This document shows, piece by piece, positions 583 to 63,660 of a DNA stretch of 64,000 bases. The translations under genes and the position numbers were made by a program. The notes beneath the pieces are model-generated. The model made no database searches. It saw nothing but the letters and a program-made list of their open reading frames with translations, and was not told the origin of the DNA. Position 1 is the stretch's first letter. Every line of letters starts with the position of its first letter. Source of the stretch: Tribonema minus (taxonomy: Eukaryota > Sar > Xanthophyceae > Tribonematales > Tribonemataceae); assembly GCA_017506865.1 (NCBI GenBank), contig JAFCMP010000536.1, positions 620,001 to 684,000 on the forward strand, given 5' to 3'.

Positions 583-3057
583 TCATCGCCGCTGCTGCTC
601 GCGCCGGCGGCGGCGGCGGTGCTGCGCCATCGGCTGCCGCGCCGCGCGCCGCCTGCGCCGCCGCCGCTGCTGCTGCCGGCGCGTCTGCGGCGCGCGCCGC
701 CGCCGCTGCTGCCGGTGTCGCGGCCGCGGAGGCGCGCGGGGCTGAGCGCTGCTGCTGCGGCGCCGCGGCGCGCGCTGCCCTCGTACCACCGCACAAACTC
801 CTCGAACGTCACCTGCAAGAGCGGTATTACGAGGCTTGGTTCGTGAAGCAGTGAGTATGGATTGAAGTTGAGTGAGCCTATCATTTCAGGCAAGGTCACA
901 GCGGCGGGTAGATCAGCTGGGGTAAGGTCCGATGGGCTGGTAGCTTCCATGGGGGGGCTCAGCCGCCGCCAGCATTGGCAGCGCACGCACACTGGACATG
1001 GCCACGCTGTTATAGGGTACAACGAAAACCTGCTACATACAAGAGAGTACAGCAGTGACTGTTCCGAAGGCTGTCTGTCTCATCGCTGCTGGCGTGCACA
1101 GAATCACATGTTACACTACCGCGCTCAGCTAGGATGAGGGTGACGACTCACGTCGCCATTGGAGTCAAAGTCCATATCTGCAAAGATCTTCTTAAGGCTC
1201 AGCGCCCAATGGTTATAGGGTTTGAAGTTGGGGTCAACTTCATTTGCAGCGTGCAAAACTCACCTCGCCATTAGAATCAAAGTCCATCTCTGCGAAGATC
1301 TTCTTGGGGCTCAGCACGCCGTCCCGCCGTGGGTGCTCGCGCAGCGCCGCCATCGCCGCCAGCACTATCATCGCGCGCTTCACCCGCGCCTGCGCATGTG
1401 CGAAATATGTGTCGTTCATGCATGCTGAAATGAATGCAAGTGAACACTCCACGAGCACATTGCTCAGCACAAGCGCTGCGCGAACGCGCGCACACACACA
1501 CATGGTGCACACTGTGAATTGTGCCGCGTCGGCGACTGCACAACTTCAACTTTGTGCGCCACGCGGCGCTTCAAGCTACGCACTGAGTCAATGATGTGCC
1601 TACTGCCTTAACCAGCCACACTGTTCCATTCCAGTTCTCCAACTTCTTCTGAGCTGCCCCATCCCACTCGTGCGCCACTGAAACTAAAACACAGAGCTGC
1701 AATGGTGGCTGCAGCTAAACACACTCGAAGCCAGGCAGTGACATCTATGTGTTGCGTTTCCAGACAGAGTCTCCGTTTTCTTATGATGCTCCCGCGATCA
1801 GAGCTTGACAAAATGCTGGTACGTCAGCAAAGTTGAAGTTGAAGCTGAAGTTAAGTGCTGGGCGACACATATCACACACGACACTGACCTGCCCCTCGCT
1901 CCCCAGGTACTCCAGCGCGCCCCCCTTCCTGAGCTCGCGCCACATGGCGCTGATGAGCCGCTGGAACCGAAACGGAGCGCTGCTGAGGTCATATGCCCCC
2001 GCCCCCCTAGCATCAACACCCCCCTCCCGCAGCGACAGCCTCCCGAGGTAGCTGCGGCTGCTCCAATAGGGGCTATTTTGATCTGTTTTGCTGCTCCAGA
2101 AGGGGCTGTTCTGAGCGGTAGCAGCGCTCAGCATGGCGGGCTGCTTCTGGGGGTCGTCGTCGATCAGCCAGTCGGAGAGCACTACCTCCACCTGCGGCGT
2201 GATCGCAAGCGGGCAGCGAGTAAAGTGTGGGATGCCACTAATGTGGTGTGGCTGACAGTGAGAAACATGGTTGCTGGGGCATGGATGTTCATTCGCGCTC
2301 TTTACTGAGCAGATGCACATCTTCAACTTGAACTTGAAGTCTGAGCCGCGCCAAATGCACGATGTGCACTGAGGTTCGCGCAACAAGCAAACGGTTTCGT
2401 GTGGATAGGTGGAGAGGTTCATGTGATGCGGAGCAAATGACCTACTTCGACTCTGGATTGCAAGTGCACAACAGAAAGTGTTCCAAATGCAGTGAGCACC
2501 GGCTGACCAACACCGCATGCACTAGGGGTGTGACCAGACGGCAATGATGGACGACAACAAAGTGGCCGGCCTTTGTTGCTAGTGTCGGCCAACACATTGC
2601 CATATTGTAGCGTCTGTGCCTGTGCAAATCTGCCTGTCAGAAAGTCATGCATCACCGACAGGTGCTGGCCACTAGTGCACTGCGGCTTTGTGTGTGTGGC
2701 AGTGTACAAACGGGCGATGCTCTGTTGACGAGGCTGGAACCCTAAAAACCAGGATGCTACTGATGTTGAGGAAGGTGTGATTGAAGATTGTGCACTTTCG
2801 ACGATGCGAACGCCTTAGTAAGTTCGTTTGAAGGCATCCACTGACGACCAACAGCAAATTGAGTTAATGACGTGTCTCGCAAGCCTTACCTGCGGCGTGT
2901 CGTCTCCCGCAGTGACTTGGCTCACATGACGTGCTGCTGCGTTCGAAGACCCCCCCAGACGCCCATGACGCAGAAGAGGCGACTGCTGCTGGTGCATAGC
3001 GCATGCGGCGCAGCATGTCGTAGCAGCAAGGAGAGCGCGCCGCCTACGCGGAGCCAT
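180..3057 (-). CDS. EF-hand calcium-binding protein, partial gene model
   Basis: Coding exons read on the minus strand are 1889-2191, 1264-1389 and 180-812, all phase 0, joined by GT-AG introns. A possible first exon, 2890-3057, starts with ATG at 3057 and ends CCGCAG/GTAAGG. The join of exons 1264-1389 and 180-812 creates one canonical EF-hand: the loop D-F-D-S-N-G-E-V-T-F-E-E is split between its E7 and V8 residues, followed by FVRWYEG. The preceding exon encodes a helical, Trp-containing segment (LISAMWRELRKGG) that I do not recognise. The last visible exon is Gly/Ser/Arg/Glu-rich low complexity and ends at a GTGGGT donor at 179, so the gene runs on into 1-160 or beyond the left edge. The 5' end is unsure because 2890-3057 ends with the same CACGCCGCAG word as the acceptor at 2192 and could be a decayed junction copy. 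Calcium binding is likely; the role of the protein is unknown. Confidence 0.6.
1149..1205 (-). repeat. decayed copy of the EF-hand exon 3' end with donor
   Basis: This intron segment repeats the 3' end of exon 1264-1389. It still reads LSLKKIFADMDFDSNGD followed by a GTGAGT-type donor, with about six differences from the real exon end. It lies downstream of that exon in transcription order. No acceptor belongs to it, so it is probably not an exon. Confidence 0.75.
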
Positions 3058-3546
3058 ATTACGTGCGCACTTCTCTTTCCTGACAGTTCAGGCTTCAATG
3101 ATGGCCATCCAGACACCGCGGCGTGGTTCTTACTCAGAACCGAGGTAGCTATTAGATTTCCTCAGTGCTTGCGGGGACTGCTGCACTCTAGACGTTGAAC
3201 TGACCGTGTGTCTGTGATGGTCACTGCATGAAGTTAAACTTCAAACAGTGGCTGGCGCCAGTGAAGGCCTCAAAAAAATGTAAAGCTACCTCGCGAGCGG
3301 CGATCGCTTCGAAGGAGCCTACACGTCCGACCAGGGTGAGGAAGGCTACGCCATCCACACCGCCACCCCCATGTGCCACACTGTGTGTGATGCATGATGC
3401 GTTGGGACCTTCGATCTCCTCGCCCCTGGTCATTCGGTGTGAATGCAGCAACAACGAATGAACGGCACCACCAAAGCAAGCAGAACAAAGCAAGCTAACA
3501 CTAACGGCAACGGCAAAACGACGCTCAAGCAGCCCAACCTAGTTCG

Positions 3547-4212
3547 ATGAACGACAAGAAACTGGTGCTTGCGGCGATGGAGGTGTGCCCCAAATCTGGT
3601 CTCAGCAGGTTACTTGACCAAAATGCAGGCATCGGTGAGTCAATGCCTCCTTGGAGAGGCATGGGCATGTTTTGCGCGGACAAGGCAGTGGCTCAGAATC
3701 TGGCGCGATTCCCAGCGAAGCATGCTTGCATCCACACTTTCCACAAACTGCTGCCAGCAACACCATGGTGGCAGCGTGTTTCAGTGATGATCGACTGGAT
3801 GAACCTGCACTGGCCACCAGCAGTGCTGAATGCCAGCAGATTTGACGCAAGACTCCCTCATGATGCAACGGGTGACATCGTGGGAGCGCGCTGCCTGGCT
3901 CCTTTACGTCTTCACCGCTGGCCGCCCAGAGTGGATACACACATGATGGACGAGAGCATCCCGCCCTCATGCACAGTTTTAACAGGCCGTGACCAGTTGG
4001 ATCTGTTCCACATTGACAGCTTGGAAAGTCTCGACGCCACTTCGCAGGCGCCTCGACGGTCGTGCTGCACTCTGTGCCCACGCATCGCGCGCGTCGCTCT
4101 CATCGTGCAGACGCTCCACCTGGATCACTGTCCCGTAGAGCGGCCAATCGTTGTACCCGCGAGATCGCAGCTGGTCGCTGTGATATTCACATCGTCGCAT
4201 CCCTCCCCATGA
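3547..4212 (+). CDS. unrecognised ORF, 221 codons
   Basis: This frame is open from an ATG at 3547 to a stop at 4210-4212. It has no low-complexity bias, unlike most chance ORFs here, and carries clusters such as LPATPWWQRVSVMIDWMNLHW. No signal peptide, membrane helix or known motif is evident. No paralogous exon copies surround it, which sets it apart from the confirmed genes in the window. It may be a single-exon gene, a mobile-element fragment or chance. Confidence 0.2.
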   Translation: MNDKKLVLAAMEVCPKSGLSRLLDQNAGIGESMPPWRGMGMFCADKAVAQNLARFPAKHACIHTFHKLLPATPWWQRVSVMIDWMNLHWPPAVLNASRFDARLPHDATGDIVGARCLAPLRLHRWPPRVDTHMMDESIPPSCTVLTGRDQLDLFHIDSLESLDATSQAPRRSCCTLCPRIARVALIVQTLHLDHCPVERPIVVPARSQLVAVIFTSSHPSP

Positions 4213-13300: not shown

Positions 13301-16300
13301 CTAGCCACGGTCCGACGGCGGTTTTCAGGTCCTGCGGCGCAGAGCGAGATGCAATTTACGGGGTTTGTGGAGGAAGAGTTGGTTTTTCAGGGCGAGACGC
13401 AATTAACGGGGGTCGTGAAGGGAGAGTTGGGCTGTGGGGGCAAGGGCTGCCACGGGGGCAAGACGCAATTAAGGGGTGCCTGTGTATGTTACTCTGTGCT
13501 GAACTGCCTGCTGTGCAAGGGCTGTGAAGCTTGACTGCCTGCGCATGTCTGAACTCCCTGCTGAACTCTCTGCTGTGTGTTTGACTGCTGTGGTGCTTGA
13601 CTGCAGTCAACCATGAGGGTATGTAGGTTTATATGTGTGCATCAACGTCAACTTACCTGTGCGTAGTCCACAAAGCTCTTCTCGTTGAGGAAGCGCGTGA
13701 GCATGTCGAGCGCTGCTTTTGGCACGTCCATCGGCACCATGTGCCCCGCGCCGCGCACCAGCAGGTACGCCAGGCCGTTGTTAGCGGACTTCTCGCAGAC
13801 ACAAGCAGGCGCGCAGAGACCAGAGAGGCGGGCGATCGTGAGTGGATGTAAGCAGGGAGGGTGAGCATGGGGGCTAGAGGTGTGGGTTAGGGCTTGGGGT
13901 AGGGTTGCACGCCAGTTGCGCACGCATGCGCGAAGAGCAGCGAACCCAGGATTGCATGCAAAACTTGCAAGCACACATGCAGAACGGATAACCGCTGCAT
14001 GAGGGTTGAACTTCAAGTTGAAGTTACAGTGGAGCCGGGGAATTGCCTTCAATGTGAAAGTAGCATACACTAGCCTGAGCAACTTGTATGGCAGAGGATT
14101 TCAGAGCGCTGCAAGGCAGTTTCGTCCAGATCCAGGCGTCTCACTCGGAAGTCATTCCATGAATCTTGCCGGGTTTACCCACCTTGTAGTACCATGCGGC
14201 CCCCTGACTCATGTGACTCCAGCGTGTTCTATCATCTGGTGAGGGTTAGGGTTAGGGTTAGGCCTAACCCTAACCCTGACCTTAGTATAGCCCCCTACTC
14301 CACCGCCCACGCACTGCGAGCTGACTCGCGGTACGGATGCTGAGCTCTGGCCGTCAGCGCTGCCCTATCGCTGAACCACACAGCCGCTCCTCTCCGGACT
14401 CAACATGATCCATACATGTGGCAGTTCACCCACATTGTCGTACGCCGTTGCGCTGATGCTGAACCACACTGCGATTGGAAATCATCCATGACTGGAAATC
14501 ATCCGTAAGACTGACCGGATTTACCCGCCTTGTAGTACCCGCCGGCCCCTCAATGTCCCCGACTCAACCACCCACGCCCCCCGCGTTGACTGGTACTACG
14601 CACGCTGAATCTGACAGTCAGTGTATTCAACGATTGCCCTAATGCTGAACTCACCTGGTAGTAACCCGCTGGCCCCACGATGTCCCCCGCCTCAACCTCC
14701 AACGCCCCCCCTGCGCTGACTCGCGGTACGCCTGCTACGCTCTGACAGCCACCAGCATTCTCGATCTCACCCTGACGGTGAACCACACAGCGACTTGAAA
14801 TGATCCATACATGTGGTACTTATTTCACCCACCTTGTAGTACCCTGCAGGCCCCTCAATGTCGCCCGACTCGACCACACACGCCCCCCGAGCTAACACAC
14901 CGTATGCCTGCTCAGCTCTAACAGTCCGCGCTGAACTAACGCTGAGCCACACAGCCGATCCTCTCCACCTCAAAATGATCCACAAATGTGGTGCTTTGGA
15001 AGTACTTAGTTCACCCACCTTATAGTACCCTGCAGGTCCTTCGATGTCCCCTGACTCGACCACCCAAGCGCCGCGATCTGACTCGCGGTACGCCTGCGCG
15101 CCGGACCAGCTGAGCTCGGAGAGCCAGCGCTCGTTGCCGACGTGGTTGCAGATGAGGTCGTGCTGACCGTTGAAGAAGAGGAGGCGCTGGCCCGCTTCGA
15201 GGATGGAGGCGACTTGCGGCATGACGCCGAGGCCGTCCCACTGCGGGTGCATACGTGTTTTGAATGTGACGTGACCATCGAGGTGAGCCAGTGTGTATGA
15301 CGCGGTGTTTGACTACAGTACACATGAGTTGAAGTTGTAGTTGAAGTTCATGTTTGAAAAAAGCCAGGCGCTAGTCTAGCCCGCTTCGAGGATGGAAGCG
15401 ACTTGCGGCATGAGGCCATCCCACTGAGAAACGTGGAGGGGGTACAGTTGAAGTTAAGTTTATTTATAGAAGTTGACGTGGAGGCAGATGCCAAATGAGA
15501 ACTTGAAGTTGCTTTTGAAGCGTGACACAGCCAGGCGCTGGCCCCGCTTCGAGGATGGAGGCGACTTGCGGCATGACTCCGAGGCCATCAAGTGCGGATA
15601 CAGCGCACTTCAAGTTGGGGTTAAATGTGAAAGCTACAGTTGAAGTTGGTATATTGAAATTGATGAGCGGGCCCTTGCCGTCCCTTTGAGAATGCAGACA
15701 AAAATCCGGCATGACGCCGAGGCCGGTACGCTGAGGGTGCGAGGGGAGGGGGGGGGGGTTTGTCTGAACATGGCCATTGCACTGGACGCAGGCGGAGTCG
15801 CGGGCGCCATGCGCAGAGGCAGTGGTGCGGGTGCAAAGATACCTTGCACCAGGCCATAATTCAAAGTGATGCAGGAAACACCAGCCTGAGAACGGAGGCG
15901 GACACATTGGCGCACGGTGTACCTTGCACAAAGCGCAGGCCAGTGTATCTGGTGCATGGGAATAGGTTCACGCTGCACTGCGCGTCGCAGACAATACTGG
16001 CAAGTTCAAGCCTGCACAAGGCGGTACAGTGCGGCGAGTCGGTGCACTCCTGAACGCTGCGCGGGGGGTCATCCGCAACGTGCTCACAGCTACCTACATG
16101 CCCATGCACCACTTGGGCCTACCGTAAAACCTGTACGAACCCTGCGCCTATACGTACCTGCGCAATGCGGTATCGTACGGTTGGTCGGTGAACTCTTGGA
16201 ACCGCGCGGGGCCGTCCGCGACGTGCAGCGTTGCGCGCACGTACCTACCTACCCATGCACTGTTCCAGATTACTACGTCGTGAGGTGATAGAACGGCGGG

Positions 16301-19300
16301 TCCGCGTCGTCCGCGGCGTGCGCGCAACTGCGTACATGCCCACAAACTACTGGAAACCCGAACCTGAGCGAGGTGATGAAAGGGCGGGTCCGTGCACTCC
16401 TGGAACTGCGCGGGGCTGTCGGCGACGTGCACGCAGATACCTACCCACATACCCATAACCCAATCAATTCGCCAATCAATTGCAAATACGTACCTGCGCC
16501 AGGTGACAGAAGGGCGGGTCTGTGCACTCTCCTGGAAGGCGCGGGGCCGTCCGCGACGTGCAGCGCCGCGCACACACGTACCTATCTGCCCACAAACCAC
16601 GCCCAAATACCCATACATACGTACACATACCTGCGCGAGGTGGTAGAAAGGCGGGTCCGTGCACTCCTTGAACTGCGCGGGGTCGTCCGCGACGTGCAGC
16701 GCGGCGCGCACGTCGGCGCGGTTGAGGTAGTCCTGCACGGCGTCGCGCCCCGGCGGGAAGTCGTAGCCGAAGCGCCGCACGTCGTAGATGCACGCGCGCT
16801 TCCCCTGCGGTCCGCTGGCCTCGACGACCGCGTCCAGCAGCTCGTAGCACACGTTGCTGTGGCAAACATGGGCGGGGAGAGAGGATTTGACGGGGGAGTG
16901 CGCAGGGTGAGCTTGAGATCTCCGGTTTCCTAACCCTAACCCTACTCCTAACCCTGGTCGGAGTCAAAGCGCCGCACGTCCTAGGAACACGCGCGCTGCC
17001 CCTGCGGCATGCTGGCCTCGACGACCGCGTCAAGTAACTCGTAGCACACGTTGCTGAGGCGTGTGCAGAGGGGGCAGTGATCGGGGGGAGTGAGCTGAGT
17101 GAGCTTGAGGTTCCGCTTTCCTAACCCTAACCCTACTCCTAACCCTGGTCGGAGTCGAAGCGGCGCACGTTGTAGATGCACGCGCGCTGCCCCTGCAGCT
17201 GGCCTCAACGACCGCGTCGAGCAGCTCGTAGCACACGTTGCTGGGGGGTGGCACGTAAAACGGTAACTTAAACCCCGCGGTGCTGCTGACCCTATTCGCA
17301 GCCAAAGCGGTTCGCGTTGTAGGGCGCTGGCCTCCGCGACGGTGCCGTTAAGCTCGTAACACAACGTTGCTGAGGCGCGTGGGGAGGAGGGCGCATTCAG
17401 CGCCAGCATGCATAGGCGGCGGCGATTGGGGTGAGCATTGGGACGGGGTGACCTTGTCGTAGCCCTCAACCCACAGGAAAGCTCAGGTTGCGGGTTCCGG
17501 TATCAACAATGTTGAATAATGGACGACAGAGCAACCCTGGCAACGGTTGCGACGCGTGCGCCGTGGCCGGGTGTGCAAGCTTCGCGACTGAAACGCCATG
17601 ACCTTCTCAGATGGTACTCCAACTTTCGCACCGCACTTGAACTGCAAGGTCTGGCTTCGACAAGCGCCCAGGGCTGAGGCCAGGTTGCCAGGTAATGCCC
17701 TGCCCCCCCCCCCCCCCCTCATCCTCCCCCCCAACCTGCGGTTGCTCTCCTTGTCGATGTTGGCGCGGCGCGTCACCGCGCGCGGCAGCTTGAAGCACAT
17801 CTCAGGTACTACTTTGCCGCGGCACCTCCTCTCCCTCACATTTAGTAGCGCTTCTCGTCGCTGTTGGCGCGGCACGCCGCGGCGCGCGCCTGCGCCAGCC
17901 CACCTCAACTTCTGGCATGTCACCCCTCACCTGCGGTAGTTCTTCTTGTCGATGTTGGCGCGGCACGCCGCGGCGCGCGCCTGCAGCGCGCGCAGCTGCC
18001 CCTCCGCCACGAGCCCCGCGCCAAACGCGTACTCGCTCACGTCGTACTGGTACCGCGGCGCCGTCCACCCGTTGCCGATCGCCGCGCCCTTGACGTTGAG
18101 CACCACCGCGCTGCTGCCGCCCGCTGCTGCTGCCGCGCCGCCGCCATCTGCTGTTGCCGCCGCGGTGACACGCGCGTTCGCGTCGAGGATGTACACGATC
18201 ATGGAGGGTATGTAGTGGCCGGCGTGTGACTCTCCGGTGAAGTACAGCGCGCGCGACGCGAGCGACGGGTGCAGCGCCATGAACCCCTGCAGGAAGGCGT
18301 AGAAGTTGGCGTCGACCTGCGCCTCGCTGTCGGCGTACGTGTCGTCCGCGGTGATGCTCAGCCCCGTGCCGACGGGCTGGTCCACGTAGAGCACGTTCGC
18401 GACGTTGTGCCAGCTGCGTCATTGGAGAAGAAGACCGTGTGTGGCGCTGCTAGTCATGTGACTGTTACAAAGCGATATGCACACGTGTTAGTGCTCAGTG
18501 AGCGTACGTGTCGTCTGCGGTGATGCTCAGTCCCGAGCCGACGGGCTGGTGAACGTAGAGCACGTTGGCGACGTTGTGCCAGCTGCGTTGCGAGAGCAGC
18601 GGGCGCGCGTCAGGGACTGCCGGCTGTGTAAGGACTGTTATGTGTAGCAGCATGCACATGTCTCAGAGTGCTCAGGTGTACGTGTTGTCCGCGGTGATGC
18701 TCAGCCCAGTGCCGACGGGCTGTAGAGCACGTTCGCGGCGCTGTGCCAGTTGCGCCATTAGAGAAGAGGACCATGCTAATGTGGCTGTTGGTAACGTGGC
18801 TTTTGAGTAGTAAAAAGGAACATGCCGCAAAGTGCTCAATGAGCGCAAGTGGCTGCTAAGGTGACGCACAGCCCCGTGCCGACGGGCTGGTCCACGTAGA
18901 GCACGGTCGCGACGTTGTGCCAGCTGCGCCGCGAGGAATATGACGCGTGCGCGTCAAGCGCGCAGCAGTTACGGCAGTTGCGGCTCAGTAGGCGAGGAGC
19001 GGCGACGCCGGGGAGCGCAACAGCTGCACGCGCGGCAGCGCTCAGCGTGGTGTGCGTTCGCGCAGTACTGGTTGAGCGTTGCCTCAAGAGTGCGAAACGA
19101 CCACTGTCCAGCTGTGGCAGCTTTGCATGATGTATGTTCACCTTGCATTGTGATAGCGCTATCTAGCTGTGGCACCATGTACTAAGGCCTGTGCGCCTTG
19201 AACTGTGATGGCTACGTACACACGGTGTTGACTGGCGAGGTGAATGTTGAAGTTCAGATCAATCTGCCGCTGCCGCAAACATCACACGAAGCTGTCGTTG

Positions 19301-20324
19301 AAACTGGTGCTTGCTGCTCAGTTCACGGCCATACGGCCGCTTGGTGACTGCTGCAGCGAGGTGCATGGGCCAGCAACCAAGTTGAAGTGAGCATTAGTAG
19401 CTACTAATAGTGATAGTCTAGTTGAGAAAGTACATTGGCGCGCTTAATGAGGGATGATGAGCATTTTGGTAAGGAACATTATATATCGTGGCTCACTCTC
19501 GCTCCCCAACGCTGGTCGCTGCTGCACCTGATTCATCAATCTAACCCTACATACCCACAACCGGAACCCAGCACATCTGACTGCTCATCACGACTACAGC
19601 ATGTGAGATATGAATCCTCACTGCAAGTGTCCATCCTAATGAGCAGCATATGCATTAACATTGGCCAGACAAGGTATTCAGTATTGCTCGTCCAGTGAAG
19701 TTCAGCCATGCTGCAGCGCAACACAAATGCCATGTGCTCACCCGTATGCACTCAGCAGGCAAACACACCAGTATGGTGTCACCGCTCTTGTTGTCACACT
19801 TATACAGAACCAGGGCCATAATCTATGGCAATTGCAGTCGACAGGTGGTATACGAGATGCAGCAGCCCTCACCTGTACATATTGCCTGTCAAGTCCTTTT
19901 TCTTAGGCCCCGTCAGCTGCAGAGGCCCATTCTCCAAGAACAACCCGTCCATGGAGCTGCAGCCTGGCCCGCCGTTCAGCCAGATGACCAGCGGATCCAG
20001 AGCTGGTTTGTTAGCACTCTCAAACAGCCAGTAGAACAGCTTGCCGCCATTGACAGGGATGTATCCTGCGTACTGCTTGGCGGTCAACGCCCCGTCCTGC
20101 AGGCCAGGCAGCTTTGTTACAAGGTGATCGCTTGCTTTGGTGGCGTCCGCTCCAGCGCGCCGGTGCTGCTCGTGCCGTAGGTGCCCATGGTGTTTGTGCG
20201 AGGTTTTTCGCCCGCCGCCTGCCGCCGCATCGCTGCTGTTGGGAGGCGTCCTCCGGCTCTGCACTGCTCCGGTGCAGCAAAACAGCAGCACCAGCGCTAA
20301 CCTTGGGCTTCCCAGCAGCCACAT
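7317..20324 (-). CDS. membrane-anchored S10 serine carboxypeptidase with FnIII and EGF-like domains
   Basis: Eleven minus-strand exons join in phase: 19873-20324, 17931-18413, 16631-16856, 15019-15240, 13657-13791, 12893-13203, 11721-11916, 10715-10940, 9709-9865, 8298-8381, 7317-7611; 928 residues. Residues 1-23 are a signal peptide. S10 motifs follow in order: [10 protein letters not shown] (115-124), [11 protein letters not shown] (160-170), GESHAG with nucleophile Ser213, catalytic Asp415 in [11 protein letters not shown], and His478 in GAGHMVP. Then come a proline linker, a fibronectin-III-like domain (about 545-630), an EGF-like unit with six Cys (634-673), a SEA-like stretch (about 750-840), a transmembrane helix (about 879-900) and a short basic tail. 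The family cleaves C-terminal residues from peptides in secretory or vacuolar compartments; the anchor recalls Kex1, but the added domains suggest cell-surface or Golgi placement. The usual GESYAG is GESHAG here. Exons 8-10 are the least certain part of the model. Confidence 0.88.
8690..9700 (-). repeat. array of carboxypeptidase exon 9 3'-end copies
   Basis: The 3' end of exon 9 (9709-9790), which encodes [21 protein letters not shown] and ends at a GTGAGC donor, is repeated about five to six times downstream. Clear copies lie near 9585-9665, 9435-9510, 9270-9345, 9135-9230 and 9010-9085, at about 120-150 bp spacing, with fainter ones to 8880. Short CCTAACCCTAACC tracts separate the units at 8979-8995 and 9385-9402. 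Several copies remain open in the exon frame. Confidence 0.85.
12759..12802. repeat. CA microsatellite
   Basis: A near-perfect (CA)n run with one interruption lies in the intron between carboxypeptidase exons 6 and 7, next to a C-rich tract at 12700-12717. Confidence 0.95.
13255..13350 (-). repeat. copy of carboxypeptidase exon 6 5' end and acceptor
   Basis: This block repeats 13145-13215, the first part of exon 6 with its CTGCAG-type acceptor. It lies upstream of exon 6 in transcription order. Further reduced repeats of the flanking intron word GAGACGCAATTAACGGGG continue to about 13480. Confidence 0.75.
14165..14900 (-). repeat. array of carboxypeptidase exon 4 3'-end copies
   Basis: The end of exon 4 (15019-15090, reading [15 protein letters not shown] then GTGGGT) recurs downstream at about 14830-14895, 14655-14745, 14520-14600 and, weakly, 14165-14215. 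Spacing is 140-350 bp. The donor context is retained, for example GTGGGTGAAAT at 14830 and CAGGTGAGTT near 14655. Protein-level similarity falls with distance from the real exon. Confidence 0.85.
14241..14281. repeat. inverted interstitial telomere repeat
   Basis: GGGTTAGGGTTAGGGTTAGG is joined directly to CCTAACCCTAACCCTGACC, a nearly perfect palindrome of two opposed telomere tracts. It lies in the intron between carboxypeptidase exons 4 and 5. Confidence 0.92.
15365..15735 (-). repeat. array of carboxypeptidase exon 4 5'-end copies
   Basis: The start of exon 4 (15180-15240, reading [17 protein letters not shown]) is repeated upstream near 15375-15428, 15530-15600 and 15700-15735. Copies keep parts of [15 protein letters not shown] in frame. 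TTGAAG words and G runs lie between units. Confidence 0.85.
16020..16575 (-). repeat. array of carboxypeptidase exon 3 3'-end copies
   Basis: The end of exon 3 (16631-16715, reading [20 protein letters not shown] then HLAQ and GTATGT) recurs five times downstream, near 16500-16570, 16375-16440, 16275-16330, 16165-16235 and 16025-16095. Copies end in the same CAG/GTA-type donor. Average spacing is about 120 bp. Confidence 0.88.
16970..17380 (-). repeat. array of carboxypeptidase exon 3 5'-end copies
   Basis: Three upstream copies of the exon 3 start (AACGTGTGCTACGAGCTGCT and following bases) lie at about 16970-17060, 17155-17245 and 17300-17370. Each keeps the CAGCAACGT-type acceptor context. 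Telomeric CCTAACCCTAACCC tracts at 16930-16953 and 17121-17143 sit at equivalent places in adjacent units, so they were probably duplicated with them. Confidence 0.88.
17690..17915 (-). repeat. carboxypeptidase exon 2 3'-end copies
   Basis: Two decayed repeats of the end of exon 2 ([12 protein letters not shown] then a CAG/GTGAGG donor) lie at about 17735-17810 and 17845-17915, directly downstream of the real donor at 17930. Confidence 0.75.
18490..18940 (-). repeat. array of carboxypeptidase exon 2 5'-end copies
   Basis: The start of exon 2 ([20 protein letters not shown]) is repeated upstream near 18505-18595, 18685-18760 and 18860-18935, at about 180-bp spacing. The copies still read [11 protein letters not shown] or close variants. 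Confidence 0.88.
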
Positions 20325-20683: not shown

Positions 20684-23600
20684 ATGGCGGACTTGCAGGT
20701 GGACGTGGATGCGCTGGCTGCAGCCGTCGTCGCCAACAGTTTGACGATCAGAGCTCTGGTGCTGCTGGCGGGCGCTGTGCTCACCTTCTTCATGCAAACG
20801 GGGTATGCCATGGTGCACGTGGGCTGCGTGCAGCTGAAAAACACCAAGGTGAGGCCTCTTTCGTGACAGCTTCATCTCAATAATCGCCTGCATGTTCTCA
20901 CAAGTGGTTCATGCATCAGAGTTGAACATCGCCAAGGAGAGCAGGAGGCGCTGACACTGTGAGCGGAAGGTTCGGTGTCGTCTGGAGATGGTGCGCTGTA
21001 TGATTCTTTTGATCAGCTGGTGACAGCAATCTTGTCGCACGTTGGCGCAGACATGGGGTCTCCGAAGCCGTTCGTCGCGTATAATCTCCAGGCTCTGATC
21101 GCTGCCTCAAACTCGGCACTGGAGTCACAGGAAACCACTGTCCCACAAGGTCGGATGTGATCAATGCTGCTGCAGCTGGCACTTGTGGCCACGACGCTGC
21201 TTTGGCAGCAAGACACTTCTGCTTTGCCAACGCGATGTTCAACACCCACTTCAAGTCACACAGGCTTAAGTGGCACGTGAACTATCCGTGTATGAGGATT
21301 TGTACACTTTGTCCGCTAAGCAGCGTACATGAGACTGGCACCGCGTGCCAGTAGGTGTTGCATCATGCAAAGAAATTGCGTGGCCAGTCGAGAGCCTCAA
21401 AGTTGAAGTGGGGTGAAAGGTGTGTGTTCATTACGCCACCGTCATGCAGAAGTGCTGGTGCAGACATGTACGCGTATATCATCATATGCAATGGAATGTG
21501 CACGTGTGTATGCATCAAAATATATGGACAGCATTGCACTACGATGAAATCTGGCCTGCTGTGGCAGAGGTGAGCATTAAGTCACGTGATTCAAGTGTCA
21601 TTGCACAATGGAGAGCCGGATGTGCACGAGCCCCGTTTCACATTGGCGGAGAGGCTCATTGAAGTTCTCTGCACAGATGTGAAGTTGGAACTTCAAGAAA
21701 AATAGTCGAGTGCTGTGCCTTATACTGGTGGAGAGGTTGATTGAAGGGCACTGCCACTAAACCACAGCTACTTGTGTGTGAGTATATATGAGCATGCAGT
21801 GTCAGCTATAGCGGATGCCGTAGGTCACAGTGTGTCCCCAAAGTCTCATCTGACAGCTTCGCTTGACGCTGGTTGATATTGCGTGCGCCGAGCGCAGCCG
21901 CCAATGGCCTTGAAGTTGGTGACGCCCCGCTGGCCATAAACTTCAACACAAATCAGACAACAGAACTTCAACATGCGACAAACAACAGCAGCCCATGGAC
22001 TCTACGCCACTTACACCTCATGGACACCTCTGCGCACCTTGCAGATCACGCGCGCACCCCCCACTGTTTTGCATTTGGTGGCGCGCAGCGCTCAACCTGT
22101 GATACTAGTTCACAGTACTTTATTCGCTTCCGCTTGAGGGGCGGAGACCCTATCACGCGCCACGTCGTACAGCCCACAGCGCGTATGCCCCCATGGAGCT
22201 TGTGCACGCCTTCCCTGCTACAGAATTCAGGAATGATTAGGCAAACGCGCTCCGCCCTCTTGTCTTGACGCACACGCCAGACTGCAGCGGCCCTGCGTCA
22301 CGAAGACCTGGCGAGACGGACAAAGGCGCCCAGATGCACGGCGCAGCGCTGCTCGACCTCCGGTACACCTTCAGCGATGCTCAGCGCTCAACCTCTGATG
22401 ATACCTACCTACCTGCTCCCCGTGTAACTGTATCGCGCGCAGAACACGCTCATCACCAACGTGTTTGACTCGGCGCTGGCGAGCATGGTGTGGTGGCTCA
22501 TTGGGTTTGGATTTGCGTTTGGGGACTCGGACAGCAGCTCCAACCCGTTCATCGGCAGCGACGGGTTTGCATTATGTGAGTGGCAGTGATCAGCAAACTG
22601 CAAACTAACTTCAACTCACACGTTTGTATCGTTAATCAGCAACGACGGCTTCGAGCTCTGTGAGTGGCAGCAATGAGCCAACCACAAATTATGCTGAATG
22701 CCAACTTGTGTTGCTTCAGCTCTGTGTTGTTACCGTCCATCGGCAGCAACGGGTTTGCTCTGTGAGTGGCAGTGATCAGCAATCTACCACCCATTGCGAA
22801 ACATTGTTTTTGAATTTAGTTGAATCATGAACACTTATCAATGGTTTGTATAACATTAATTGAGAATTGAGTTAAACCATCAACACCTGTAAACATTAGT
22901 GTTGTTCATCGGCAGCGACGCCTGGGCACTCTGTGAGTGGCAGTGATCAGCAAACCACGATTCATCCTGGAATATTATTTGAGAATTGAGTTGAATCATG
23001 AACACTTGAACGTGTTAGTATCGTCCATCAGCAGCAACGATTTGGCGCTCTGTGGTTGCCACAAACCATACTGGAATGCTCCAACTTTAAGTTATGCCAA
23101 CTTTTCATGTTGACACCGTTCATCGGCAGTGATGGCTGTTTTTTGCGCTCTGTGAGTGGCAGCGACCAGCAATCCACAAACCATGCCAGTTCAGCATGGT
23201 GTTGAAGATCATAGCACTTCTGCGCATGAGTGCCAACATGAGCTGCTTCTAGGTCTAACGGCTGGCTCCATACCAGGACCCGCTCACGTTCAATTGTCCT
23301 TGCAAGAGTCAGAGCGATGCAGTTTTGCAATGTGCATCGTCGCTATAGGTGGCCTTGCCTGTACACTTCACTCACTGTGGTCTGCGGCGACTTTTTACCA
23401 GATGCACAATACTCAAAAGTGCCTTGCCAGTGCACAATACAGTAGTGATAATAACTGATGCATACACAAGGTTACTGCTACAAGCAGTGAGATATCGCCG
23501 CTGCAGGCTGCTACGCCTATGCATTTGGCAGTGATATGCGGCGACTCTCCACCAGCCTTTCCCGCCACACGAAAGCATTGCCGCAGCGCACGTTGTGACA

Positions 23601-26600
23601 GGCTCATGAGATCATGGCGCGAGAATCGTTACGAAAATGAAACACTTTGAAGAATGTTGATTAGCAGTGCACTCACTACACAATTGAGCGCTGCCGTGCT
23701 TCCTCACGATCGAACAAGAGCGTCCTGAGAGCGTACAGCTGCTCACATTGCCAGAGGTGGATGACCAAGGGAGCAGACGCAGGACTTGCGGCGAGAGCGG
23801 GCATATTGCCTAAAAGAGAGAGCAGCACACAACACGTGCACGAACAGGCTTGGGTGCGCAGCGATGCTCAGCCTCAACATGTACTGAGCTATACGCTGTC
23901 AGCAAGCATGATGATGTGATTGGTGGGCGCTTTCGCGACCTCATCTTGCGCTGAGCACTGCAACTTCCCCTACAACTTCAACTTGTGCTGAGCGATGGAA
24001 CTCCACTACATCCCGTTGCCATCGCACAGCGGGCTCTGAGTTCAGGGGCGACGACCCCTCCTCCCTGCTGGCGATACGGTGGGCGTGGTGGCTGCTGCAG
24101 TGGGCGTTCGCGGGAACCACGGTGACCATCACCAGCGGCGCCGTCGCGGAGCGCATCACGTGGCCCGCGTACGCCATGTATTCTGCGGTGAGTGCGCCGC
24201 CTCTTGGGGCAATTTTTTTATTAGCCAAATGGTTGAAGTATTCTCCCATGTACCACTTTGAACTTGCTTAGGCTTTGTGTACTGTGTTTGTACTGTGAAT
24301 GTACTCGAGGTGACCTTCACGAGCGGCGCCGCCACGGAGCGCATCACGTGGCCCGCGTACGCCATGTATTCCGCGGTGAGTGAGTGCGCACGCTCTGTCT
24401 CGCGGGAAGCGAGCATTTGGTGCGTTGTCCCTGTGAACTGCGTGCAAGTTCAGTGTACTGGGCATGTACTGTAAGTGTACTAGAGGTGTTCATCACGAGC
24501 GGTGCCGTCGCGGAGCGCATCACATGGCCTGCGTATGCCATGTACTCCACGGTCAGTGCGCTGCTTCTTGGGGCAAATTCAAGCTAAACGGTTAAAGTAC
24601 ACTCTGAGGTACGTCTGTGAACTTGCTCAGGCTCAGTGTAATGTGCTTGTACTGTGTATTGGATGTGACCTGATCAGCAGCGCCGTCGCGGAGCGCATCA
24701 CGTGTCCAGCGTACGCCATGTATGCTGCGGTGAGTGCGCACCGCTGTGTGTCTCGCAAAGTGCGCGCGTGTAGCGAGTTGTCCATCATGATGGTACCGGG
24801 TGTGCCAGTTCAGTGTACAGTGCGTGTACTGTGAGCATACTCGAGGCGACCATCACGAGCGGCGCCGTTGCAGAGCGCATCATGTGGGCTGCTTACGCCA
24901 TGTATTCCGCAGTGAGAGCGTACGCACGCTGTATGTGTGTGTATGTATGTAGCGCGTTGTCCCTGTGTAATGGGTGTCAGCTGTGTGTACTGTGCAAGGA
25001 CGTTCAACGGCGTAGATGCTGCAGCGCACGGCTCACGAACGCAGAGCCACTCTGCTGACCCACCAGGTTGCCCCGATTGAATTCTGGCACATTGGCGAGT
25101 AGGATGTCACCTGTGAATGGTAGGCATGGTATGCTAACCCTGACCCTAGGGCCCGAGCAGCCCCTTTCTCGCAACAGCGGCAGTCGACTCTGACCCTGAC
25201 TCTGACTGGCCCATCACCTCGCCTGTACGACCGCCTCCCCCCCTAGCGCATTGTGCATGTGTGTGCCGTCCAGTGAACATAATAGTGTTGCACTTGTGCT
25301 CTGTCGGTCTTCAGGTGTTCCTGGGCTTTATCTACCCCGTGGTGGTCTACTGGGCATGGAGCATGGACGGTTGGGCGAGGTGAGTTGAAGTTGAAGTTGA
25401 CAATTTGTCACCATAACCCATGGTGGAAGCGTTTGATTGATGTCTGTAGCGAAGCTGAGCGAGATGGCTGGGCCAGGTGTGTTGAAGTTGTTGTCTATCT
25501 TGGTGGAAGGGCAGGGTTTAGGGTGAGGTGAAGCAAAGCTGGCCCGGTGCATATTGGCGCGGTGAAATCAACTTAAAGTTATCATAGTCACCCATTGGTG
25601 GAAGGATTATGTAGCTTCAGAGTCAGGGTTGGGTGAAGTAGTGTTGTCCTCAATGCTCAGGCGTTGGCGTGGTGAAGTTCGCTTCTCTGCGCTGTGTCTG
25701 CGCACAATTTGGTGGGCAGTGATGGTTCCACATGCCGAGGATGGACTAGAAATTATTCTGCGGTCCTCTTGCACTGTAGTGAACCTAGAAAAAACACACG
25801 CGGTTGTCTGTAAAAAATACTACGAAAGCGCATGGCATCTATGTGCATGTATGAATGTCAATGCACATGATTTGTGGTGTTGTGGCAGCTGTCGGCATGC
25901 ATGTGTGAGAATGTACATTACTTGGTGGTGTTCCCATGCACTTGACTGCACTGTTGCGTCCCCAACTGCCACAATCTATGGCTGTCTGCCAGCCCTCAGC
26001 GCGCCGCTCACTACTGCCCTATCGCGTTTATTCTCCGCGTTACTGCCGCAGCCCGTACCTGAGCGCCTCGGACGACCTGCTGTCAAACTGCGGCGTCATC
26101 GACCACGCCGGATCGGTGCGTCACCTCCTGTACTTCAAATTGAACTTACACCTCTACCAACGTCGTGCTCCAGATGAAACCTTTTTTGTGGATGTTCTCA
26201 GCGAGGTTTAGTGTTAGGGTCAGGGTCAGAGAGAGGTGGTTTTGCCGCCGTGTTTCACACTGCATTCAAGTGACGCCTAAGCTGGCGAGTTGTAGCAACT
26301 TGGTTTTGGTTGTCGTTGTACTTCGTGCTGGAGCAGTATATCATTTCGCACTGTACCTCAAGGTGTACTTCAAGTGACACCCTTTTTTTGCAGATGAGGC
26401 GCAGCAATCCCGTTTGGTTGTCGTTGTACCTCTTGCTGGAGCGGTACCGTCACGTCGCACAGGGCATATCAGCACAACAAAACTGCGAGGGTGACAACGC
26501 TAACGCCATTGAATGGGCTGTGGCGAACACGTACTCTAGCGCAGCGGCACGTCACCGCCTGAAGCGTCCGTTTGCAGAACATGTTGAGTTTCATTGGTTG

Positions 26601-29600
26601 TAGTTGTGTGAAGCGTCTGTGTGCAGAAGCAGCGGCGTCAAGTTTCATCGGACGACCTGCACAGCGGCGGTACAGGCTGGCCTCAACAGCTGCGCGCATT
26701 CAAGAGCAGCAGCTGTAACCGCCTCCTTGTTTGCTCGGCGCATCCTGCGCACTGCCCTCTGGGTTGGAATGAGGGCTAGGGTTAGGGTCAGGGTTAGGCT
26801 TTCGTGTCCGCAAGCTCTCACACAGGTTACACTCATTTGCGCTGCGCACCGGAGAGCCGTCTGTTACCGCCCGTGCAAGCTGAGGCTGGGAGCCTTGGCG
26901 CTGCTGGCTCTTTGGAAGCTGTCTGGCACCCCCGTACGGCAGGCTGCCAAGCATGCGTCAGCGCTCGTCGCTGCAGCAGCGCTCAGCGGCAGGCGCAGCA
27001 CGCTCATTGTTTGATCAAAGTGCCCTACCAAGTGAACAGAAGCAGTACCTGACGGCCTTTGCAGCTGCTGCCGCTCCCTCTGCGCGCCGCATTGACGCCG
27101 CTTGCTTGCTGCATGCTCCCCCCTAACCTTAACCTTAAGGCGTCGTGCACGTGTCGGGGATGGCAGCGCAAAATTTGTACTGCGAGCAGCACTAACTGAT
27201 AGTGAAACTGATGCTTCGAGGTAGTAACTGACCGGCTCCGCTGGATTCTCTGCGCGCCGACCTTACATTGCCATGTCTGTGATGCCTTGTTTCGTGCCGC
27301 CTGACCCTACCCCTAACCCTAACCTTAGGGCGTGGTGCACGTCCGCGATGATGGCAGCGCTCAAGCAGCAGTAACTGACAGTAACTGACTGCCTTTGCAG
27401 CTGCTGCCGGTTCCTCTGCGTGCTGGCCTGAAATTGCCCTGTCTCTGCACCCAGGCCTTAGATCGCCACGTCTGCGGCGCGGTCTGCGCATGTTCCCTAA
27501 CCCTAGCCCCAACGCTATGCATGCGACAGGGCGTCGTGCACGTTTCTGCGGGGATGGCAGCGCTCGTCGGCGTGGCGATCGCAGCGCAAGAGCAGTAACT
27601 ACAAACAGCAGTAATTGATAGTGATATCGCTAGTAACTTGACCACCTTTTGCAGGCGCTGCTGTATTCTCTGCGCGCCGGCCTTAATGGTGCGATACGTG
27701 CTGAAGCGTGCCCCCCCCCCAACCCTAACCTTAGGGCGTCGTGCACGTGTCTGCGGGGATGGCAGCGCTCGTCGGCGCGGCGATTAACAGCTACTGACAT
27801 AACTGACAGTAACTGACCGCCTTTGCAGCTGCTGTCGTATTCTCTGCGCTCTGGCCTTGATGGTGCGATGTCTGCGATGCTTTCTGCACGCCGCTGTCGA
27901 CATCTGCGCGCAACAGGGCGTCGTGCACGTGTCTGCGGGGATGGCAGCGCTCGTCGGCGCGGCGATGCTCGGCAGCCGGCACGGCCGCTTCATCGAGGGC
28001 ATCGCGCGCGAGATGCCCAAGGTGCGAACAACACGTGCCAGTTCGTTGTAATTATATACCTCGAACTATGCACTCTCGTGATGTCAGCCACAGGATGATC
28101 GCTGTCGTCCCGCTCTCGTTATACAATATATGAGCGCTCTCGTTAAATTCAGTGGTAATCAGTTGTGCAGCGTCGCGCGCCATCACTGCGGCAGGTGATG
28201 CCCAAGGTGCGATGACACGTGTCAGTTCCTTCGAAGAAAAAAATATGTTTTCATCACATCAATAGCTGCACTCGTGATATCAGTGGTGATGAGTCGTTGT
28301 CGCGTTTGGATGTGGAGCGTCACGCTCCGTCAGGGCGGCAGGGCTCCTGCTCTTGTGATATCAGTAGTGATCAAGCGGCGTGTTCTTTGAGGGTATCACG
28401 CGAGAGATGCCCAAGGTGCCAAAAACGTGTCACTTCTTCAAAGATACACATATACTTCGAAGTACATGAAAAACGAATCAAAAAGATTGTTGGGCTCTAG
28501 GTGACAAGGGATGGTTAGCTGCAAGTGCCTTCCACCAATAACCGTGGTCGCCGCTGCTGCAGTCATTAGCCACACAGTGCCACCATATATATCTACTTGT
28601 AAGCAACTAGGTATGTATAGACTATACATCTGCACTCGTGATATCAGTAGTGGTCAGGCGGCATTGCGTTCGCATGTGGAGCGTCACGCTCCATCAGCGT
28701 TGCCAACCACCACATGGTCATCGGTTATTGTTGCTGCAGGCCAGCGATACTGCCACTAGTAGTGTTAAATACGTGGCTAATTGCCGTGTGAGCATTTGTC
28801 CTCATTTCAGGTCAGGTTATCATTTGTCCTCATTTCAGGTCAGCTGAGTCTATCACATTATCACCGCAGGCCAGCTGGGTGTACCAGGCGCTTGGCACTC
28901 TCATCATGATTCACATCATGTATAGAAGTACGTACCGGAATGCTGCTCATCGTCACACGGGGTGGGGGGGCAGTATATGTCGCTTCAAGTAAAGGAAGAG
29001 CACAAACACATGAAAGCAAACAGCTGTTCTGGCATATCCATCTGTCCTTATTGCTGCAGGCCAGTTGGGTGTACCAGACGCTTGGCACTCTCATCCTGTG
29101 GTTTGGGTGGTTTGGTAAGTAAAGCAAGAGATGAACACATGAAAACAAACAACTGTTCTGACATTTCCATCGGTTGTTGTTGCTGCAGGCGAGCTGGGTC
29201 TACCAGACGCTCGGCACGCTCATCCTGTGGTTTGGGTGGTTCGGCATGGTGGGCTCAATCGGCTTTGGCTACACATCGGGGGGGGACTCTCTAGTCGCAG
29301 CGCGCGCCATGGTCAACGCCGCCATTGCAGCGGGCACCAGGTCTGTTTAGTGTTACTGTCGGCAGTCTTACTTACTTTACTTGCTACAATAGGGTCGTTT
29401 AAAACAAGTAGTTTACTGACATCGTGTGGCAGGATTGGGTTCGGGTGGTCTGGCATGGTGGGGTCCATAGGCATTGGCTACACCTTCGGGGGGGGACTCG
29501 CTGATCGCGGTGCGCACCATGGTCAATGCCGCCATTGCTGCGGGCACCAGGTCTCTTAATTGTTGATGCGCATGCATAGGTCTTGGACGCATTCTTACTT

Positions 29601-62000: not shown

Positions 62001-63309
62001 CCATTTGGTGTGCGTATAGCTGCACAAGTTGGTGCGTGTAGCTGCTTGCACGTTGAAGTGAAGCTGCTGTTGCTGCCTGCACGAGAGGCTCAGGATGGCC
62101 TCTTGAAGATATCCGTGATGCAACGCTGCGCTCCGCAGCCCACCTCTGAACGTCTGCAGCCCACTTCTGAGCCTGTTTCAGCTTCGTACGCAGCAGCCGT
62201 CGAAAAACATGTAAAACTCAACAACAACTTGAACTAAAACGCCGTTTTTCTGTACCGCGCCAAACAGCCACGTGTGGGCTTGTTGTGTGTGGCCTTTGAG
62301 GGTGGCTTATAGAGGTCAACCTAATATAAGCCTGGGGATACAAAGGCTTGATTCGATTTGCTTGTCCGACGTATACAAATGCCTGTTTTAATTAGGTGAC
62401 CGGCCGGCTTAAATAGCGACATGACGGTATAAATGTGAGTGTCGCCTCACCTCTTCAGCCAGCAGCGCCGCCTCCAACTCCGCAACAGTCATCGACGCCA
62501 CGTCGCGGTCCACGCCAGTTACGCCATCGTCAGTTACGCCATTTTCAGTTACGTCAGTTACATCCAGCAGCGCGGCCTCCAGCTCCTCCACGGTCATCGA
62601 CGCAACGTCGCGCTCTAGGCCACCTGCGGTGATGTCGGGTGCGCCGTCGCCGGTCGCATCCTGCAGTGCCGCACCACAAAGCAATATATATGCAGTGATA
62701 TGCATGAGCTTGCAGCGCGTGTGCCAGGACTGACGTCAGCCGATTGGGGTGATCCAGCTGCATTTCGCGGAATGCTACTTGATGCGCTAATGCCTGTCAG
62801 AGGTGACGTTGAAAATGCTAGCCACCTACGTGGGGCTATATCACACTTGGACCGTGCTGCAGCATGGTAGCCTACATTCCCATCCACCGGTTGTCCGCTC
62901 CCTATTTCTGGAAATCCTACCGAGCCAAAGTGACACCAGCCGCAAGACCAAGTTGAACTTGTATCTGCGACGCCTCCGACTGATTGGCTGATCGTTGACT
63001 GCATTAGTTTGTCCTTAGCTTCAACCTCAACTTGAACTCCCCATCTGCGATGCCCTCCAATTGGTTGGTGAACTGCTCACACGGCCACCGGAGTGACACC
63101 TATAAGCACTGTCTCGAGCCACAAAGACAAGTTCGACTTACCTCGCCGCCGCCGTCTGACCGCTGGGTTGACGGCTCATTGCCATCTGAATCGCTGTCTT
63201 GAGCCTCCGCCAACGCCTCTCGCAAAAGCTCCACATCTAGCTGCTCCAGCCTCTTTTTGTGCGCCTTGCTCGCCTCGTGATTGCCCATCTGCTTCTCAGA
63301 CTTGAAGTC
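59046..63309 (-). CDS. DNAJC21/JJJ1-like co-chaperone, C-terminal three exons
   Basis: Minus-strand exons 63142-63309, 62451-62660 and 59046-59816 join in phase 0 (56, 70 and 256 residues). The first starts FKSEKQMGNHEASKAHKKRL, the C-terminal half of the U1-type zinc finger of DNAJC21 proteins (F-K-S-x-K-x-x-x-N-H-x-x-S-K-x-H). The last ends with the second C2H2 finger, CQVCGQAFGSRTKLFAHIKS then GHAALKR and TGA, matching that family's C-terminus. Family members pair with Hsp70 in late 60S ribosome maturation. The J domain and the Cys half of finger 1 must lie beyond base 64000. Between the fingers are Ser/Asp- and Gln-rich stretches. Exon 62451-62660 contains an internal duplication of RDVASMTVEELEAALL. 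A TIR element and a tandem duplication sit in the last intron. Confidence 0.85.
60905..61550. repeat. two-copy tandem duplication, about 329 bp
   Basis: Bases 60905-61233 and 61237-61550 are direct copies with few changes. Both strands are open across most of it: plus reads KVTIMGPELEIVAIYVNPDI in each copy, minus reads LLSYIAFLSSVSAWRPVTPS in each. The plus reading slightly recalls the strand pattern of endonuclease/exonuclease/phosphatase domains of LINE elements, but copy 1 has a TAG in that frame. It lies in an intron of the DNAJC21-like gene. Confidence 0.85.
61889..62429. mobile_element. non-autonomous TIR DNA transposon (MITE-like)
   Basis: A 541-bp element is bounded by 39-bp terminal inverted repeats (TACCGTCATGTCGCTATTTA onward through AAGCCGGCCGG and CACCTAAT) at 61889-61927 and 62391-62429, with a single mismatch. 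A TA dinucleotide at 61887-61888 and 62430-62431 is a plausible target-site duplication, as for Tc1/mariner-like or PIF/Harbinger-like elements. TAAGCC words recur inside both ends. No transposase ORF is present. It lies in an intron of the DNAJC21-like gene, 19 bases after its 5' splice donor begins. Confidence 0.85.
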
Positions 63310-63384
63310 CTGTAGGGGAAGGAGAGTCACATCATGAAGTTGCTGATTGTCATCATGCGTGTGTGTGTGTGTGTGAGTGCGGGG

Positions 63385-63660
63385 GGGGGGGGGGGGGGGG
63401 CTCGTAATTGCCCATCTGCTTCTCGGACTGAAGTCCTGTAGAGGATGAAGAGTCACAGGGTGAGGTTGCTGATTGGCACCATGTGTGCAGGGGGGGGGGG
63501 GGGTCGTGATTGCTCATCTGCTTCTCGGACTTGAACGTCCTGCAGATAATGAGAGTCACATGGTGAGGTTGCTGATTGTCATCATACGTGTGGGGCGGGG
63601 GGGGGGGGAGGCTCGTGATTGCTCATGTGCTTCTCGGACTTGAAGCCCTGTCGGGCGCAG
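63385..63660 (-). repeat. array of DNAJC21-like exon 5'-end copies
   Basis: The exon start at 63270-63309 (DFKSEKQMGNHE, with acceptor CTACAG) is repeated three times upstream, near 63398-63440, 63503-63545 and 63610-63655, at about 105-bp spacing. The intron-side word GAGAGTCACATGGTGAGGTTGCTGATTG is duplicated with it, and G runs separate the units. Confidence 0.92.

Follow-up and report, generated by a model that had tools for sequence, protein, structure and literature searches.

Tandem duplication of short DNA segments can reshape genes: duplication of an exonic AGGT segment yields a new intron (PMC3443670), and in a potato RdRp gene a single recent tandem duplication gave rise to a new intron and to an insertion of exon sequence (PMC4974935). 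The latter article also mentions a fission yeast gene with an intron that spans four copies of a duplicated 24-bp segment of exon. Novel intron positions in Drosophila arise by sliding or tandem duplication (PMC2891723), and stwintrons and introner-like elements provide extra splice elements within introns (PMC8469720). The present analysis concerns a 64,000-nucleotide stretch of the genome of the yellow-green alga Tribonema minus (Xanthophyceae; contig JAFCMP010000536.1, positions 620,001 to 684,000, forward strand; hereafter the window), in which introns contain arrays of decayed, direct copies of their own exon-intron junctions. Each of these copies (decoys) comprises an exon end, the intronic splice motif and filler.

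As in the AGGT route (PMC3443670), a local tandem duplication within a gene has an effect that is hidden by splicing, as judged here from protein models and from transcript-derived proteins of a relative; that route makes a new intron from exonic AGGT, whereas here existing introns appear to lengthen in arrays and exon-intron junctions are duplicated. The potato case (PMC4974935) is also a tandem duplication over an intron-exon structure with inherited splicing signals, but it was one event, compared with many decayed copies per junction and an apparently unchanged protein in T. minus. In Drosophila (PMC2891723), as here, short tandem duplications with splice sites are the raw material of gene structure; there, coding sequence that contained a proto-splice site was duplicated and gave new intron positions, whereas T. 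minus has decoy junctions arrayed in introns that already existed. Stwintrons and introner-like elements (PMC8469720) form dispersed families with terminal inverted repeats, unlike the local, direct copies described here, which resemble their own exon.

Searches of open-licence papers found no description of junction-copy arrays in introns, and none was evident in the titles or abstract openings of the papers listed for the T. minus genome and its introns. Human introns derived from tandem arrays, each repeat holding splice sites, were reportedly described by Zhuo and others in 2007, with exonic arrays being used alternatively; the decoys of T. minus appear to be unused. Tandem duplication is a known process; to our knowledge, intron growth by arrays of junction duplicates, with a polarity enforced by splicing and near-neutral decay, is new. 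How introns lengthen and how the spliceosome chooses among nearly equal sites has long been asked, mostly with the help of designed duplicates. In T. minus real splice junctions have been duplicated naturally, with copies that form a gradation of ages and distances and never lie within the exon, and this genome is a natural test of how cells pick the right splice site.

Polarity and spread of junction copies

Five genes were modelled exon by exon: an ammonium transporter gene (AMT) and a serine carboxypeptidase gene (SCP) in the window, and three SCP paralogues (A57, B59 and C60) that belong to a carboxypeptidase cluster on another contig (C335) of the assembly (158 Mb, 554 contigs). The AMT and SCP models were obtained by tblastn of the T. 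minus proteins P0001 and P0121, the top matches of draft proteins from the two genes, with splice sites placed by frame and chosen with these proteins in view; the spliced translations were identical to the published proteins at 468/468 (AMT, P0001) and 491/492 (SCP, P0121) aligned residues. For each of the 71 splice junctions of the five genes, a probe of 60+60 bases centred on the junction was compared with the region of the same gene (E<=0.001). Twenty-four junctions were duplicated in the adjoining intron, and all 65 copies lay in the intron that adjoins their junction, 44 donor copies downstream of the exon and 21 acceptor copies upstream of it. AMT (11/19 junctions) and SCP (6/8) together had 50 copies at 17/27 probed junctions, with donor copies always downstream and acceptor copies always upstream, each in its own intron; the paralogues had 15 copies at 7/44 junctions (A57 1/14, B59 2/14, C60 4/16), with identical polarity. 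The same rule was obeyed by an acceptor copy of AMT exon 11, additional to the probe-search set, and by a zinc-finger (jaz-like) and an EF-hand-like gene of the window. One extra probe match, of 23 bases, was located inside SCP exon 2.

The strict polarity announced by the sequence-only reading (copies upstream of an exon hold its 5' end, copies downstream its 3' end) was borne out, in 65/65 copies of the modelled genes and in 48/49 copies of 14 unseen loci (see below). Its figure of 2-6 copies per junction at about 90-200 bp agrees with the 1-5 copies detected per junction by the probe search and with a median spacing of 169 bp (10-90% range 104-202, spacings >=300 excluded). Four of its five genes could be vouched for, and the fifth place (62.45-62.67 kb) is ambiguous. 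Self-BLAST of the window gave 72 direct high-scoring segment pairs (HSPs), 71 of them at less than 5 kb separation, and six inverted HSPs at less than 5 kb. With 60 probe bases on each side, 56/65 copy matches extended at least 20 bases into the exon and 23/65 into the intron. The arrays are made of head-to-tail units within an intron, as are intronic minisatellites.

The further sample consisted of eight arbitrary 6-kb stretches (round coordinates, eight contigs) and six loci around DEAD-box helicase hits. Exons were called by codon usage trained on the five modelled genes, protein evidence being limited to the DEAD-box hits and a myosin head match (Pfam) in locus L067, and exon parts were searched for again within 1.2 kb. 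Polarity was observed for 30/30 edge copies in the arbitrary loci (present in 5/8 loci and for 11/21 called exons) and for 18/19 in the DEAD-box loci (5/6 loci, 10/18 called exons); the 14 loci together thus gave 48/49, with two exon-interior matches and one inverted exon match. This count excludes the two interior matches and 12 matches within other called exons (10 arbitrary, 2 DEAD-box), five of which were upstream 3'-end matches, opposite to the polarity. The uncleaned count, window parts included, was 62/68; five of the six exceptions were upstream 3' matches of one L070 exon to a neighbouring called exon, and the sixth came from L066. L070 has long coding exons with matches in adjacent called exons, so that these repeats belong to the coding sequence.

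Direct repeats (40-1200 bp apart) covered 17.5% of the bases in window tiles (first 60 kb), 15.5% in arbitrary loci, 14.4% in DEAD-box loci and 10.9% in the carboxypeptidase cluster; the corresponding coverage by inverted repeats was 0, 0.6, 0 and 0%. In conclusion, the junction-copy arrays are a real feature, almost exclusively direct in orientation, that is not limited to the window and is spread across the sampled genome.

Decay of the copies and proposed lengthening of introns

Codon positions and indels were scored in 47/65 copies (18 were under the score cut-off). Copies differed from the exon at about 12% of positions (334/2,771 aligned bases). This difference, the diverged filler between copies and the recurrence on independent contigs make an assembly artefact an extremely improbable source of the arrays. 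Changes private to copies (n=157) were distributed 49/45/63 over the three codon positions (third-position excess P=0.08), compared with 2/4/18 for changes private to the real exon (n=24, P=4e-5) and 5/3/25 for changes common to subsets of real exon and copies (n=33, P=8e-7). The copies contained 15 indels, a single one being a multiple of three, and three stops in the exon frame. These results indicate that decoys evolve with little or no coding constraint while the real exon is constrained.

The statement that copies usually keep the reading frame and the splice dinucleotide was upheld in part. Among the 47 exon-alignable copies, 12 had an indel, 14 of the 15 indels were not multiples of three and three copies had an in-frame stop; in the copies that could be anchored without gaps, GT was kept in 28/34 and AG in 11/15. 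Selection on the decoy reading frames is unsupported, given the codon-position spread and the frame-breaking indels, and frame keeping is residual similarity. Nor did the copies show the coding constraint of functional alternative exons. Decoys could still be functional in a broader sense, selection keeping them as alternative ends, poison sites or splicing regulators. Strong-looking donors (many decoy donors are GTGAGT or near it), the slight third-position lean of copy-private changes (63/157) and an exon half better preserved than filler between decoys (see below) would fit such a role. It is nonetheless quite unlikely, as private changes are nearly even over codon positions, indels and stops are freely present, the proportions of GT and AG are about those predicted from the identity of neighbouring sites, and decoys are skipped in the transcript proteins of a relative.

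Changes common to subsets of real exon and copies trace the history of the constrained exon, so that seeding from the real exon, or exchange with it, appears to have occurred at various times. The idea that nearer copies are younger than far ones was unsupported, the nearer copy being more similar to the exon in 20 pairs and less similar in 22. This absence of a divergence gradient with distance points to exchange rather than to a conveyor of ever newer proximal copies, and some exchange between copies and real exon is likely.

Identity along the copies was measured from the junction in the 49/65 copies that were gaplessly anchored (34 donor, 15 acceptor). In donor copies it was 0.83 over the last ten exon bases, 0.88 at +1..+2, 0.76 at +3..+6 and 0.54 at +7..+10, and it fell deeper in the intron to 0.43 at +11..+20 and 0.34 at +21..+30. 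Acceptor copies gave 0.90 over the first ten exon bases, 0.83 at -2..-1, 0.71 at -5..-3 and 0.45 at -10..-6. The lasting similarity is what selection fixes in the real gene, i.e. exon and splice motif. Fillers nevertheless retained homology: 53/92 pairs (28/49 exon-copy, 25/43 copy-copy) were above the 95% point of an other-array null, and 58/70 units had a homologous partner. Because filler is homologous between units, whole units were duplicated.

We favour, with a probability of roughly 0.75, the view that introns lengthen by short-range tandem duplication (unit of about 100-200 bp), that many surviving duplicates span junctions and that exon definition ignores the decoys. Each duplication would give the intron an extra exon end and splice site. 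A donor copy would survive solely downstream of the exon and an acceptor copy solely upstream, because the mRNA stays the same while splicing uses the sites at the borders of the real exon; duplication of an exon interior would alter the protein. Copies would then be released from coding selection and decay, their exon half staying visible longest since it is compared with a real exon held by selection. That half is probably also renewed by occasional exchange with the real exon. The proposal of the sequence-only reading, that introns grow as junction-spanning DNA is duplicated locally again and again, is the best reading, and the polarity is strict in unseen loci as well, but the apparent preference for junctions is inflated by detectability.

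This preference was assessed in 36 introns (41,039 bp), in which 22 repeat families reached an exon end (8,992 intron bp) and six were intron-only (771 bp). When exon-like parts were masked, 13-15 components were junction-linked versus three intron-only (16 versus 8 at E<0.01), under a generous rule for linkage ('near a junction copy'); AMT intron 10 was entered at 800 bp in both counts. The outcome that had been named as fatal to the proposal, exon or intron interiors duplicated as often as junctions, was mostly not observed: two interior matches were found versus 49 edge copies in the further loci, and 6 versus 22 families in the introns. The 22:6 ratio is however inflated, because the real exon is held still by selection and exon-bearing copies remain detectable longer. 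Masking reduces the junction excess, and shorter ancestral introns would abolish it; the array-free remainder of some introns suggests such an ancestry, as in C60 intron 2, where 749 of 854 bp are in the array. With short ancestral introns, a tolerated unit of about 170 bp could in most cases not avoid a junction; a duplication unit large in proportion to the intron would favour junctions by itself, and targeting is therefore not claimed. Older copies may have gone undetected at junctions without matches, 9/47 of which were above the 90th percentile versus 3/38 on the wrong side, a result that is suggestive at most.

Ordinary intronic minisatellites that include a junction by chance, splice sites being irrelevant, are an unlikely explanation. 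Local direct repeats do make up 10.9-17.5% of all sampled sequence and intron-only families do occur (6/28). However, the junction-linked majority survived exon masking at both thresholds, and the polarity together with the near absence of exon-interior copies shows that selection on the mRNA shapes the survivors.

Several observations weigh against short-range duplication followed by plain decay. First, homology dropped abruptly near positions +6 and -5 relative to the splice site. Second, in unit-wise comparisons of decoy-decoy pairs the exon half was better conserved than filler (identity 0.795 vs 0.70, gap openings 3.3 vs 11.9 per 100); a cruder comparison of long HSPs, with several units per HSP, gave 0.72 vs 0.70 for copy-copy pairs, and the unit-wise result is preferred. 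Third, uniform mRNA-preserving duplications would give 4-12 junction families out of 28, compared with the 22 observed. Fourth, A57 and B59 had just one and three copies, respectively, so that two of the five genes are nearly copy-free. Finally, a weak third-position excess in copy-private changes may be real. The first two points are not expected from plain neutral decay of whole units. The exon-half excess is likeliest to come in part from ascertainment by exon similarity and, for the rest, from exchange confined to the still-similar half.

The first and third of these points would be expected if exon ends and splice sites were preferentially copied (from RNA, a splicing intermediate or templated break repair) and pasted into the intron. 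Such junction-targeted copying would place a homology boundary near the splice site, as in donor copies where identity falls from 0.83 to 0.34 by +21..+30; it would explain why matches reach at least 20 bases into the exon far more often than into the intron (56/65 vs 23/65), and why junction-linked families exceed the geometric expectation. We regard it as distinctly unlikely, since homologous fillers in 53/92 pairs indicate duplication of whole units, donor copies include intronic positions +1..+6 that are absent from spliced RNA, and orientation is nearly always direct. G- or C-runs were rejected as a breakpoint signature: runs of at least five bases were present at 4/47 distal copy ends, compared with 6.4% of windows in array introns, so that targeted copying has no such mark either.

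The copies could alternatively be birth marks, the introns having originated when an exonic AGGT segment was duplicated in tandem; tandem genomic duplication is an accepted route of intron gain (PMC3443670). This model predicts that the intron contains a joined copy of upstream exon end and downstream exon start, whereas the donor copies found here run into GTRAGT-like sequence and filler, and we consider it very improbable. A bolder version of the favoured reading is that splice junctions are hotspots of continuing duplication and exchange, in nucleosome-sized units of about 170 bp, exon ends and decoys evolving in concert while filler drifts; introns would then lengthen genome-wide, and thousands of strong decoys would be tolerated owing to strict exon definition in a stramenopile. 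This extension is tentative, and we consider it somewhat more doubtful than probable.

Splice-site choice in the presence of decoys

In the modelled genes exons were 63-483 bp and introns 378-2168 bp long, and decoys were located outside exons. Indirect evidence on the mature choice of sites was provided by P0241 and P0243, proteins from assembled transcripts (TRINITY names, EukProt) of an organism that is a relative by similarity. Consecutive residues of P0243 and P0241 mapped to the real exon ends of C60 and B59 at decoy-bearing introns, the exact joins being searched with equal length imposed; the proteins are those of the relative, whose own introns they do not reveal.

As decoy donors are often at or near GTGAGT, motif strength is unlikely to be the criterion of choice. 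In exon definition, splice sites are paired across a short exon. If, as is most likely, the closest acceptor and donor on either side of an exon are paired, splicing would pass over all decoys. The problem of splice-site choice raised by the sequence-only reading is real in principle, but it would be solved by the nearest acceptor-donor pair, decoys being outside the exon that they resemble.

Genes, arrays and other features of the window

Coordinates of copies given below are accurate to a few bases. AMT (ammonium transporter, Pfam PF00909; tblastn of P0001, splice sites and Pfam) extends over 20684..34450 on the plus strand, the end being approximate. Its exons 1-6 are at 20684-20848, 22443-22575, 24030-24187, 25315-25379, 26052-26115 and 27917-28021, exons 7-10 at 29189-29340, 30529-30699, 31643-31835 and 33254-33452, and the last exon (11) starts at 34309 and encodes a NANREAA stretch in common with P0002. 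Donor copies of exon 2 occupy 22576..23184 (exon-like ends at about 22659, 22763, 22932 and 23146, with GT in all four) and those of exon 3 occupy 24188..24996 (ends at about 24375, 24551, 24729 and 24911, spacing 176-188). Exon 6 is flanked by acceptor copies at 27043..27916 (exon-like starts at about 27139, 27329, 27530 and 27735) and donor copies at 28022..28420 (ends at about 28206 and 28415); exon 7 likewise has acceptor copies at 28739..29188 (starts at about 28740, 28870 and 29060) and donor copies at 29341..29860 (ends at about 29550, 29714 and 29832). A single acceptor copy of exon 8 lies at 30335..30528 (start at about 30382). Donor copies are found for exon 9 at 31836..32277 (ends at about 31974, 32130 and 32255) and for exon 10 at 33453..33960 (ends at about 33624, 33778 and 33952). 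The acceptor copy of exon 11 is at 34153..34308, with an exon-like start at 34185 (real exon at 34309). In AMT introns 3 and 10, and in C60 intron 6, two filler types alternate (A-B-A-B) with a period of twice the basic spacing, a pattern suggestive of two-unit blocks having been duplicated.

The arrays are also a warning for annotation, as decoys can enter gene models. Within 33453-34450, the published AMT model P0001 draws its last exon from a frame-shifted stretch of the first decoy copy of exon 10 and misses the conserved NANREAA exon at 34309.

SCP (serine carboxypeptidase S10, Pfam PF00450; tblastn of P0121, splice sites and Pfam) lies on the minus strand at 13651..20324, with exons 1-5 at 20324-19873, 18413-17931, 16856-16631, 15240-15019 and about 13791-13651. 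Exon 2 has acceptor copies at 18414..18935 (starts at about 18582, 18749 and 18923) and donor copies at 17725..17930 (ends at about 17839 and 17735). The acceptor copies of exon 3 are at 16857..17400 (starts at about 17053, 17240 and 17369) and its donor copies at 16010..16630 (ends at about 16494, 16363, 16275, 16159 and 16016). For exon 4, acceptor copies occupy 15241..15735 (starts at about 15423, 15592 and 15730) and donor copies 14180..15018 (ends at about 14832, 14654, 14526 and 14182, with an intron-side-only match at about 14448). The published model P0121 is without 16 residues of exon 2 (17931-18413) that are open in the genome, owing to a short intron or to a model error. The published model P0242 (L057, contig C335) is without residues around the GGPGCSG motif that are encoded by one exon and the beginning of the following one.

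Two further arrays are on the minus strand. A zinc-finger exon (63241..63720; zf-C2H2_jaz-like, Pfam 19.1 bits, below the cut-off of 22.6) starts at 63309 and is preceded by three upstream acceptor copies that start at 63435, 63539 and 63647. The 3' end of an EF-hand-like exon (1258-1315, within 1146..1315), so labelled from a motif reading, has one downstream donor copy at 1146-1203 (58 bp, 88%), found by self-BLAST. The top-scoring direct repeat of the window is a direct duplication of 319-330 bp with 94% identity at 60898-61546.

An Rfam search of the window gave no match. Short interstitial telomere-like arrays (TTAGGG/CCCTAA, at least two units) were present 14 times in the window, at 8982, 9389, 11124, 14246, 27311, 30998, 31045, 43147, 44385, 45998, 46047, 46223, 51070 and 51966, versus a mean of 0 in 20 shuffles. 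Genome-wide, the three-unit pattern gave 11,474 overlapping matches versus 0 for the reversed control. The telomere-like array at 27311 is immediately upstream of the decoy acceptor at 27329.

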